Assembly: GCF_002944405.1 (NCBI RefSeq) | Contig: NZ_CP024307.1 | Coordinates: 206,501-270,500 of the forward strand | From: Sinorhizobium fredii | GTDB taxonomy: Bacteria; Pseudomonadota; Alphaproteobacteria; Rhizobiales; Rhizobiaceae | DNA: 64,000 nt | Direction: 5' to 3' | Shown: positions 14,206-54,195 of the stretch, one piece after another | How positions within the stretch are numbered: position 1 is the first letter of the stretch | How the letters are laid out: every line of letters starts with the position of its first letter | Position numbers and translations under genes: made by a program | The notes under the pieces: model-generated | What the model was told of the DNA's origin: nothing | The model's input: the letters and a program-made list of their open reading frames with translations, nothing else | The model's database searches: none

Positions 14206-14717
14206 GGGCCAGTCGGGAACGATGCGTGGGCGGACTTTCGACCGCTTGCCAGAGGCGTGCATTTGAGAAATATGCAGCGTCCCAGGCAGGTCGCCTGAGT
14301 TCGCCGAATGCGGTGTGCTTCAGGAGCGCTTTTGCCCGGGCCTCCATCCCCGTCGTCATCCTCGGGCTTGACCCGAGGATCCATGTTACGCTGGCCAAAT
14401 CACCGCCAGAACCGGTGCTTGCGATTGGATCCTCGGGTCAAGCCCGAGGATGACGCTTTGAGGGGATGTCACGACCCATTGCGGCGTCGACAGTCCGGTC
14501 AGGCGGTTGCCGCAGCACCTTGTACGGCGGTCTCCGATGCCCGCAATTCTGCTGGCAGCGTGTGCCGGATGGACGTCCCGGACCTTCGAAAAACGGCGAA
14601 TTATCGTTAACCGGCTACGCGTCCAGCGCATGCCTAATTTGCAATCATGGAACTACTGAAATCTTAGGCAAATGCCTATTTGACCTTCGTCAAGAAAAAG
14701 AAAATGGAGTGTCAAAA
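14206..14717. other. 512-base gene-free region between pheA and the DUF1127 gene
   Basis: Apart from the paired-arm repeat at 14354-14455, no credible gene is visible. Short frames here lack ribosome-binding sites and family resemblance. The last 80 bases, which are AT-richer, presumably hold the promoter of the downstream small gene. Confidence 0.6.
14354..14455. repeat. REP-like paired-arm palindrome, copy 1
   Basis: Two inverted arms face each other across a spacer of about 40 bases. Each arm is itself a hairpin, ATCCTCGGG paired with CCCGAGGAT around a 5-base loop, with outer CGTC and CATGG ends. The same arm recurs at 42913-43015, 50275-50303, 50443-50480, 50782-50819, 50949-50986 and 54068-54195. 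The architecture is like REPINs of other bacteria. Confidence 0.85.
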
Positions 14718-42912: not shown

Positions 42913-43015
42913 CGTCATCCTCGGGCTTGACCCGAGGATCCACACGCAAGGCGTTCCGAAAATCTCAGCTTGAGTGATTGGCAAATGGATCCTCGGGTCA
43001 AGCCCGAGGATGACG
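42913..43015. repeat. REP-like paired-arm palindrome, copy 2
   Basis: Two inverted arms of the ATCCTCGGG/CCCGAGGAT hairpin, both with CGTC outer ends, around a spacer of about 40 bases. It has the same overall size as the copy at 14354-14455. It lies between the convergent epmB and OmpA-lipoprotein genes. Confidence 0.85.
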
Positions 43016-50139: not shown

Positions 50140-50442
50140 TTGTTCCATGAGTTTGCTGCGATTTTCGTTCACCGAACTCGGCGACTTGGCGAGCGATCCT
50201 TCAAACCACCGCGGGAAGATTATTGCCGCCACGGATTTCGCGTTTCGGGGGTTCGAAAGTCGAGGGCTCGCGCATGGATACTCGGGTCAAGCCCGAGTAT
50301 GACCGAGAGGAAAAGGAGCGACTTCCGACTCTCAGCACGGCGGGGTGAATTTCGCCCATAGTCGATCGAGTGAATTTGCGACGAGAGCATTGACGGCTAC
50401 CGCGTCCAGACGTAGCGGAATTGTCGGCCACACCCACTCCCG
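50140..50442. other. Gene-free region between lepA and the GIY-YIG element
   Basis: It holds the single palindromic arm at 50275-50303 and no recognisable gene or RNA. Sequence between arms shows no conserved feature. Confidence 0.55.
50275..50303. repeat. Single REP-like arm with a compensated stem change
   Basis: The arm reads GGATACTCGGGTCAAGCCCG and then AGTATGACC. Compared with the other arms, one C-G pair of the stem has become A-T in both halves, so the hairpin is preserved. No partner arm close by in the expected inverted orientation was found, other than those around the GIY-YIG gene. Confidence 0.75.
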
Positions 50443-50480
50443 CGTCATCCTCGGGCTTGACCCGAGGATCCATGCACAAG
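50443..50480. repeat. Left inverted arm of the GIY-YIG element
   Basis: A 38-base copy of the REP-like arm including the CATGCACAAG extension. It is identical to the inverted complement of 50782-50819 except at one position. Confidence 0.9.
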
Positions 50481-50493
50481 CACCATCGTCGGC

Positions 50494-50778
50494 ATGGCCG
50501 GATACGTCTACATCGTTACGAATCAAATGCGCGGAACGCTCTGTATCGGCGTCACGTCAGATCTTGAGCGCCGCATCTTCGAGCATCGAGAAGGGCTAAC
50601 ACCGGGCTTCGCATCGAAATACGGCTGCAACCGACTCGTCTGGTACGAAGAACATCTGCAGATCGGCACCGCTATCCAGCGCGAGAAATCTCTCAAGCGC
50701 TGGTACCGACAATGGAAGGTCGAATTGATCGAGAAGATGAATCCGGGCTGGCGCGACCTCTATTTTGAGCTTTGGTGA
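50494..50778 (+). CDS. Small GIY-YIG-fold nuclease-like protein
   Basis: A 94-residue stand-alone GIY-YIG domain. GYVYIVTN is the GIY half. The YIG half reads LCIGV, with cysteine in place of the usual tyrosine. R in LERRIFEH, glutamate in QREKSLKRW and asparagine in NPGWRDLY are in the positions of the remaining active-site residues. The ATG is 13 bases after the left repeat arm and the stop only 3 bases before the right arm. No Shine-Dalgarno sequence is visible. The cysteine may lower nuclease activity. Confidence 0.85.
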   Translation: MAGYVYIVTNQMRGTLCIGVTSDLERRIFEHREGLTPGFASKYGCNRLVWYEEHLQIGTAIQREKSLKRWYRQWKVELIEKMNPGWRDLYFELW

Positions 50779-50781
50779 GAG

Positions 50782-50819
50782 CTTGTGCGTGGATCCTCGG
50801 GTCAAGCCCGAGGATGACG
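50782..50819. repeat. Right inverted arm of the GIY-YIG element
   Basis: The mirror of 50443-50480 over 38 bases with one mismatch, ending GAGGATGACG. Confidence 0.9.
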
Positions 50820-50948: not shown

Positions 50949-50986
50949 CGCCATCCGCGGGCTTGATCCGAGGATCCATGCACACG
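50949..50986. repeat. Degenerate REP-like arm
   Basis: It is in the same orientation as the arm at 50443 and includes the CATGCAC extension, with several changes (CCGCGGG and GATCCGAGG), so its stem is imperfect. It ends two bases before the stop codon of the minus-strand GNAT gene. Confidence 0.7.
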
Positions 50987-54067: not shown

Positions 54068-54195
54068 AGATCCTCGGGCTTGACCCGAGGATCTAAACAC
54101 AAACACCGGTGCACGCGCTTTTCAGAACTGGCGTAACCAAGTTTCGACTGTTTGAGGCATGGGCATGGATCCTCCGGTCAAGCCCGAGGATGACG
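54068..54195. repeat. REP-like paired-arm palindrome, copy 3
   Basis: The left arm is a perfect palindrome (AGATCCTCGGG...CCCGAGGATCT, 54068-54094). The right arm (54165-54195) carries one uncompensated change in the stem (CTCCGG instead of CTCGGG). The spacer is slightly longer than in the other paired copies. It lies between the convergent YqaA and RNase D genes. Confidence 0.82.

Follow-up and report, generated by a model that had tools for sequence, protein, structure and literature searches.

In a 64,000-nt window of the Sinorhizobium fredii genome (assembly GCF_002944405.1, contig NZ_CP024307.1, positions 206,501–270,500, forward strand), we observed a short gene of the GIY-YIG nuclease superfamily enclosed by two inverted copies of a repetitive extragenic palindrome (REP). 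Judging from sequence comparisons, this 377-bp arm-gene-arm unit is probably a small autonomous element resembling a REPtron, in which a minimal GIY-YIG nuclease gene sits between inverted, cognate CGTC-tagged REPs. In the samples that we examined, the association of the nuclease with REPs is close to certain and their pairing is well supported; autonomous mobility driven by the nuclease is the best explanation, inferred from these comparisons.

The arms of the unit are 39 bp long, inverted and identical at 38 of 39 positions, and just 12 bases on the left and 2 on the right separate them from the gene. The original prediction had described arms of 38 bases (37 of 38 matching) with 13 and 3 bases to spare; these are the same arms trimmed by one base, so the arrangement was confirmed. 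Each arm is a palindrome in its own right, with a 9-bp stem and a 5-nt loop. It consists of the tag CGTC, the stem ATCCTCGGG, the loop CTTGA, the stem CCCGAGGAT and the tail CCA, followed by nine bases, eight of them common to both arms.

Inverted REP arms around GIY-YIG genes in other bacteria

To look beyond the window, we scored the inverted flanks of 80 named loci, the best 80 of 583 confirmed relatives in public genomes. They are not independent, since many of them belong to Mesorhizobium. A flank score of at least 40 (a threshold chosen after the first order-draw results had been seen) was reached at 58 of the 80 loci, compared with 6 of 723 neighbouring open reading frames (ORFs) and 2 of 1406 random intervals (Fisher 1.1e-62). 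Genes of the same fold that we take to be YhbQ-like served as a further control; none of 30 had matched flanks, and the best score among them was 23. Enrichment of GIY-YIG genes within inverted arms, on which the original prediction depended, is thus present in the genomes sampled.

Smaller samples, made up of best-scoring loci and overlapping each other as well as the 80, gave similar pictures. A homologue was found in 234 of 397 genomes drawn from the order, and 21 of 29 other best-scoring loci of this draw had inverted flanks scoring at least 40 (shuffle maxima 21–29). In a draw from the phylum, 19 of 29 best-scoring loci reached the threshold. A third set, which we call the handle set, combined five genomes (three Bacteroidota, one Parcubacteria and one deltaproteobacterium) with four records from a plasmid collection; here 11 of 26 strong homologues and none of 4 weak ones scored at least 40. 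Among 12 loci hand-picked from 39 matching records of the plasmid collection, the eight reaching 40 came from Sinorhizobium meliloti, Neisseria gonorrhoeae, Aeromonas, Azospirillum, Shinella, Rhizobium CIAT894, Novosphingobium and Sphingobium.

Two observations on these plasmid records deserve mention. On Planktothrix agardhii plasmid p1 (NZ_LR882964.1), the family gene has an MmeI-type restriction enzyme on one side and the DISARM gene drmA on the other, and GTCATTCTGAG-type repeats are found close by. Three records filed as plasmids (CP090106.1, NZ_CP119140.1 and NZ_AP026896.1; 2.2 to 4.9 Mb) resemble chromosomes in size, the first of them also in carrying genes such as lpxA and lpxB.

The association also holds between genomes. 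REPs of one loop type occur in 196 of the 397 genomes of the order, and the nuclease gene was present in 147 of these 196, compared with 87 of the 201 repeat-negative genomes (odds ratio 3.9; stratified by family 2.4, p 0.005).

The tag is specific as well. In a tag-aware hairpin search, 49 of the 80 genes had a GTC-tagged hairpin on each side, compared with 7 of 673 control ORFs, whereas eight other tags occurred on both sides of 0–2 of the 80, and GTA as the tag of none. A few of the 49 two-sided cases are odd hairpins (e.g. L099 and L140); in 33 of the 49, the tags of the two nearest hairpins, one on each side, both point outward, away from the gene. The 113 gene-adjacent hairpins represent 84 distinct sequences, 100 of the hairpins starting with AT and 90 ending in CCA. 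Hairpin sequence differs between lineages, with the tag-adjacent AT and the CCA tail mostly kept.

Paralogues within one genome allowed a closer look at the pairing of enzyme and repeat. From 40 loci picked from the order-draw list we obtained 30 within-genome pairs, with approximate protein identities. Flank cross scores were 18–48 for pairs of at most 0.73 identity (n=11) and 48–363 for pairs of at least 0.76 (n=19); among the 18 pairs in which both flank scores reached 40, the two groups were disjoint (18–48 vs 57–363). Divergent paralogues of one genome thus carry different arms, nuclease clade and REP family going together. Because random REP insertion would give mixed arms, the matched arms count against it.

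The S. fredii genome itself offers such a case. A second nuclease of the subfamily, encoded outside the window, is 55% identical to the first and has arms and a repeat family of its own, which comprises 15 copies including the arms (at most 3 mismatches; a reversed control pattern gave 0 matches). Eleven of the 15, arms included, lie within 0.5 Mb of its gene. Repeats of both families were closer to their own nuclease than expected under uniform placement (median 285 kb, p 0.005, for one and 270 kb, p 0.004, for the other). In this test family A was represented by exact cores, while as many as 3 mismatches were allowed in family B; sites within 500 bp were merged, and the arms and a single family-B site located on a different replicon were left out. 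When the families were contrasted with each other, the result was marginal (Fisher 0.05). A concentration of repeats near the gene is also reported for two RAYT REPtrons in the accessible part of PMC8266576.

Paralogous GIY-YIG genes less than 100 kb apart on one contig (G223:C23, G180:C12, G260:C23 and G229:C6) hint at local spread in at least four genomes. Two trios were seen as well, with genes about 0.5 kb apart in one (L317, L321 and L325; G783:C12:62661-63947) and about 2 kb apart in the other (L311, L315 and L320; G785:C39:12594-17463); taken together, five of their six genes are flanked on either side by GTC-tagged hairpins. Nearest hairpins vary between the genes of the Parcubacteria genome.

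Recurrence of the unit and its repeats

Among 33 genomes of the genus, eleven of the further unit copies listed, from nine genomes, were compared. Homology to the unit starts at query positions 91–102 in 8 of 11 copies and ends at 475–478 in 9 of 11; the arms span 101–477. The copies occupy about six sites, as judged by matching flanks, and at the lepA site the unit is found in either orientation across the genus. Truncated remnants, consisting of the gene and one arm, are present elsewhere. Arm, gene and arm thus behave as one unit: it recurs at different sites, with homology ending near the arms, and some relatives lack such a unit at a given place.

Downstream of lepA, where S. fredii has the unit, many members of the genus (L046 and similar) have other DNA; by eye, this DNA looks like a ccdAB-type toxin-antitoxin pair. 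In L060 and L064 the unit lies one gene further on, and the neighbouring gene is truncated or rearranged. A second case comes from Azospirillum lipoferum 4B, in which the family gene and REP pairs separate sufB from sufC; in three relatives of 94.7–96.1% identity without the unit, the two genes are 87–129 bp apart. At the G407 site there is a sequence that looks like a fused half-REP palindrome. When empty sites were sought for the Shinella and Rhizobium CIAT894 units, the relatives turned out to be either occupied or diverged.

Units may also be lost. Between fnrL and a response regulator, plasmids of Sphingobium strains TomTYG64 and TomTYG74 (L232, L231) have a two-headed hybrid palindrome where other strains have the gene unit. 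This palindrome is best read as a scar of unit loss by deletion between the palindromic arms. Since each arm is a palindrome, inverted arms hold short direct repeats too, and loss can therefore be simple. As for copy number, single genomes of the order have as many as 8 matches. A Flavivirga genome has 16, of which nine are strong and three form a tandem array; two of this genome's copies contain an in-frame stop.

Within the window, the REP core (at most 3 mismatches) occurs 10 times, compared with 0 in each of 100 dinucleotide shuffles. Two of the copies, outside the unit on either side, were absent from the original prediction (Table 1). Its gene-less arm pairs at 14354, 42913 and 54068 are all present in the core scan; the third is degraded, its left copy having no GTC tag and each copy one mismatch. 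The gene-less unit at 42913 is found again in numerous other locations across the genus. At this site G398 shows a deletion, G403 has the pair, and seven other aligned relatives have no pair but differ around it (G415 was excluded from the alignment). In the whole 6.56-Mb genome the exact 13-base core has 16 copies, eight of which, both arms included, lie within 40 kb around the gene. We used exact cores alone for this count because allowing one mismatch gave 47 matches, compared with 25 for a reversed control.

Table 1. Coordinates of the unit and related features (window positions unless marked otherwise)
Feature	Position	Strand	Remarks
Left arm	50443..50481	+	CGTC-tagged REP plus 9 further inverted-repeat bases (8/9 common to both arms)
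GIY-YIG gene, 94 codons	50494..50778	+	ATG at 50494, TGA ending 50778; PF01541
Right arm	50781..50819	-	Same REP inverted; 38/39 identical to left arm
Outer REP copy, variant stem, upstream of unit	50275..50300	-	Degenerate core scan
Outer REP copy, imperfect stem, downstream of unit	50953..50978	+	Degenerate core scan
Gene-less inverted REP pair, REPIN-like	14354..14455		Cores at 14358/14426
Gene-less inverted REP pair, about 103-bp unit	42913..43015		Cores at 42917/42986
Gene-less inverted REP pair, degraded	54070..54195		Cores at 54070/54166
Second subfamily GIY-YIG gene with arms	C1:2637440-2637894 (gene at C1:2637521)		Same genome, outside window; other REP family

We also asked where the gene-less pairs come from. 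Ten spacers, among them that of the 42913 pair (entered as L197), were compared with the gene unit, with 60 shuffles each. One of the ten (L056) beat all 60 shuffles, matching the 3′ end of the gene, and the fact that the best matches of 6 of the 10 fall in this 3′ end is suggestive. For the gene-less pairs of the window, an origin by internal deletion of the gene unit found no support: the arms are common to both, and the spacers have no detectable similarity. Thus the original idea of an autonomous element with non-autonomous derivatives stands in part, as regards the shared arms and the recurrence of the unit, and finds no detectable trace of the gene in the window's spacers.

The window palindrome matches the CGTC-3 REP class already described by Di Nocera et al. 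in 2013, as it has the CGTC tag, the 9-bp stem starting with AT, the 5-nt loop, the CCA tail and the arrangement in inverted pairs. According to the accessible part of that report (PMC3733652), CGTC-tagged REPs occur chiefly in alphaproteobacteria, usually as inverted pairs; dRS3 of Neisseria as well as RPE-4 and RPE-6 of Rickettsia are equated with members of the CGTC-REP superfamily, which is reported to have no dedicated transposase. The original prediction knew of no described system of this kind in rhizobia; the palindrome, then, had been described, while a link between GIY-YIG proteins and REPs was not found in open-access literature searched by title and abstract opening, a scope that left out subscription journals and bioRxiv. 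In the part of PMC9465073 that is available, GIY-YIG and repetitive extragenic palindromes are mentioned separately and without a link, and a word-start search of the accessible text of a 2025 REP survey (PMC12306157) returned no nuclease, transposase or GIY.

The GIY-YIG protein

The 94-aa product matches PF01541 with an E value of 6.8e-14 and 52.4 bits, compared with a curated cut-off of 22.6. It is one of four GIY-YIG matches that a Pfam-wide search returned in the S. fredii genome, two of which belong to this subfamily. Residues Y6, R27, H31, E64 and N83, which we take to be the catalytic positions of the GIY-YIG superfamily, are invariant in 21 diverse family members; in 38 sequences R27, H31, E64 and N83 remain invariant and Y6 is kept in at least 90%.

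The predicted structure is a single compact domain (mean pLDDT 97.2). In a fold search, the UPF0213 protein 1zg2 was the sole solved fold with E below 0.001 and also the best match by sequence, followed by the branched-DNA nuclease Slx1 (E 0.03, probability 1.00). Together with the invariant residues, this likeness makes it plausible that the protein is a structure-specific nuclease acting on hairpins.

The gene is also under strong purifying selection: the ratio of nonsynonymous to synonymous substitution rates (dN/dS) has a median of 0.04 (58 estimable of 66 pairs among 12 aligned genes, which include two from other genera). Homologues in S. meliloti and Ensifer adhaerens are 90% identical to the window protein. 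At least three gene copies in the genus read as interrupted.

Proposed mobility, alternative explanations and significance

The organization described above resembles that of REPtrons, in which RAYT (TnpA-REP) genes are associated with GTAG REPs and REPINs. In both, one small gene under purifying selection is enclosed by inverted hairpin repeats bearing a tag, inverted pairs also occur without a gene, and a repeat family specific to the enzyme is concentrated near its gene, as reported for two REPtrons. The original prediction drew this parallel from the gene between inverted cognate REPs and the gene-less pairs in the genome, and to that extent it holds. It breaks down at the enzyme, which is a PF01541 GIY-YIG protein instead of an HUH (Y1) tyrosine transposase, and at the tag, where (C)GTC and a CCA tail stand in place of GTAG; cleavage and strand transfer, moreover, are putative here. 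In tag, AT-starting 9-bp stem, 5-nt loop, CCA tail and inverted pairs the repeats agree with the CGTC-REP superfamily, but the 2013 account had no dedicated enzyme, whereas a GIY-YIG gene family is a frequent partner here.

We propose that the nuclease would recognise the GTC tag and hairpin of its own REP on single-stranded or extruded DNA, exposed for example during lagging-strand synthesis, and would nick beside the tagged hairpin. Host replication and repair could then copy or rejoin the arm-bounded segment elsewhere. Gene-less arm pairs may serve as substrates in trans, the role proposed for REPINs with respect to RAYTs. Because this nuclease and the HUH tyrosine transposase are not related, strand transfer must proceed in another way than in REPtrons and depend on host functions.

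A number of observations weigh against this reading, beginning with its central steps: both movement and cleavage are what we infer, and no GIY-YIG enzyme is known to form the covalent intermediate used by HUH transposases. The window copy itself has Cys at position 17, the second motif tyrosine, where 11 of 11 compared relatives have Tyr, and it may therefore be impaired as a nuclease. Not every locus has matched flanks. Scores below 40 were recorded for 22 of the 80 named loci, 15 of the 26 strong handle-set homologues and 4 of the 12 plasmid loci (Planktothrix 35, Spirosoma 34, Photobacterium and Rhizobium tumorigenes none), and the closest relative in the order draw (L006, 79% identity) has no matched flanks. 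Stratified by family, the association at 10 or more repeats is not significant (p 0.09), and at E 1e-3 no homologue was detected in 18 of 91 repeat-rich genomes of the order; such genomes may have lost the gene later, carry a more distant relative of it or rely on another agent. The three gene-less spacers of the window show no detectable gene remnant, 35, 56 and 56 of 60 shuffles matching as well. Finally, the comparison of syntenic loci suggested earlier did yield relatives without the unit, at the lepA site and in Azospirillum, but no boundary resolved to the base. The Azospirillum flanks carry tens of unaligned bases, and the genus sites were too diverged to give an insertion site or target duplication at that resolution; terminal inverted repeats are present, as in insertion sequences and miniature inverted-repeat transposable elements, with target-site duplication not established at the diverged sites.

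Among the alternatives, we gave most weight to a homing-type endonuclease gene that parasitises REP pairs, although we consider it unlikely. Another agent would spread the repeats, the nuclease would cut the pairs, and the gene would be copied into the spacer, whose position it indeed occupies, between arms shared with gene-less pairs. Many homing endonucleases belong to the GIY-YIG superfamily (accessible part of PMC1564403), and the unit gene has in common with them the possibility of selfish mobility. Unlike free-standing homing endonucleases, however, the unit gene was seen with no intron, intein or unique target gene around it, consists of one 94-aa domain with no further module, and is bounded by repeats that also occur alone. 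The gene fills the spacer almost exactly, so there are no halves of a gene-less spacer beside it. Additionally, arms follow the nuclease clade within one genome, the unit lies at unlike sites, and homing would leave REP spread unexplained in a genome with no PF01797 (RAYT domain) match. A little less probable still is a resident, non-mobile host nuclease that trims or resolves REP hairpins, the arms gathering through regulation by the substrate or linkage to it. Strong purifying selection, the fold likeness to UPF0213 and, more weakly, Slx1, and the lack of the gene in some REP-rich genomes would fit such a role. The copy numbers in the order and in Flavivirga argue against it, as do the roughly six unit sites in one genus and the empty sites. 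Single-domain UPF0213/YhbQ proteins are similar in size and fold, with 1zg2 as the best solved match, and yet the YhbQ-like genes have no matched arms.

The remaining two explanations fare far worse. RAYT transposases could move CGTC repeats in trans with the GIY-YIG gene as a passenger; they are thought to move GTAG REPs (PMC8266576, accessible part), and PF01797 has matches in 5 of the 33 genus genomes. It is absent, however, from 27 of 32 relatives and from the S. fredii genome, and at least eight relatives without a match (G397, G400, G405, G406, G411, G416, G419 and G420) nevertheless have REP-arm matches. The available part of PMC3733652 reports no RAYT genes flanked by CGTC repeats. We consider RAYT action in trans highly improbable overall, and we rejected it for the S. 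fredii genome unless the enzyme was recently lost. Chance, by which REP-rich intergenic DNA would happen to surround small genes, draws on the abundance of REPs in the order and is the least credible of all; it is contradicted by the core shuffles (0/100) and by the neighbour, random and YhbQ-like controls.

The GIY-YIG enzyme is thus our leading candidate for the missing agent that spreads CGTC-tagged REPs, a matter that, in the accessible part of the 2013 report (PMC3733652), was left open for the superfamily, including Neisseria dRS3 and Rickettsia RPE. The chances seem to us evenly balanced that small single-domain GIY-YIG proteins are the dedicated mobilising enzymes of the whole superfamily, from alphaproteobacterial CGTC-3 and Neisseria dRS3 to repeats of Bacteroidota and Parcubacteria, and form an element class of their own that works by hairpin nicking and host repair and is convergent with RAYT/REPIN. 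Given a specific 94-aa family and its cognate hairpins, the question can be put directly to bench tests. If this is true, hairpin repeats with a private enzyme would have arisen on two or more occasions from enzymes with no relation to each other, and many of the genes now annotated merely as 'GIY-YIG nuclease family protein' would gain a role.
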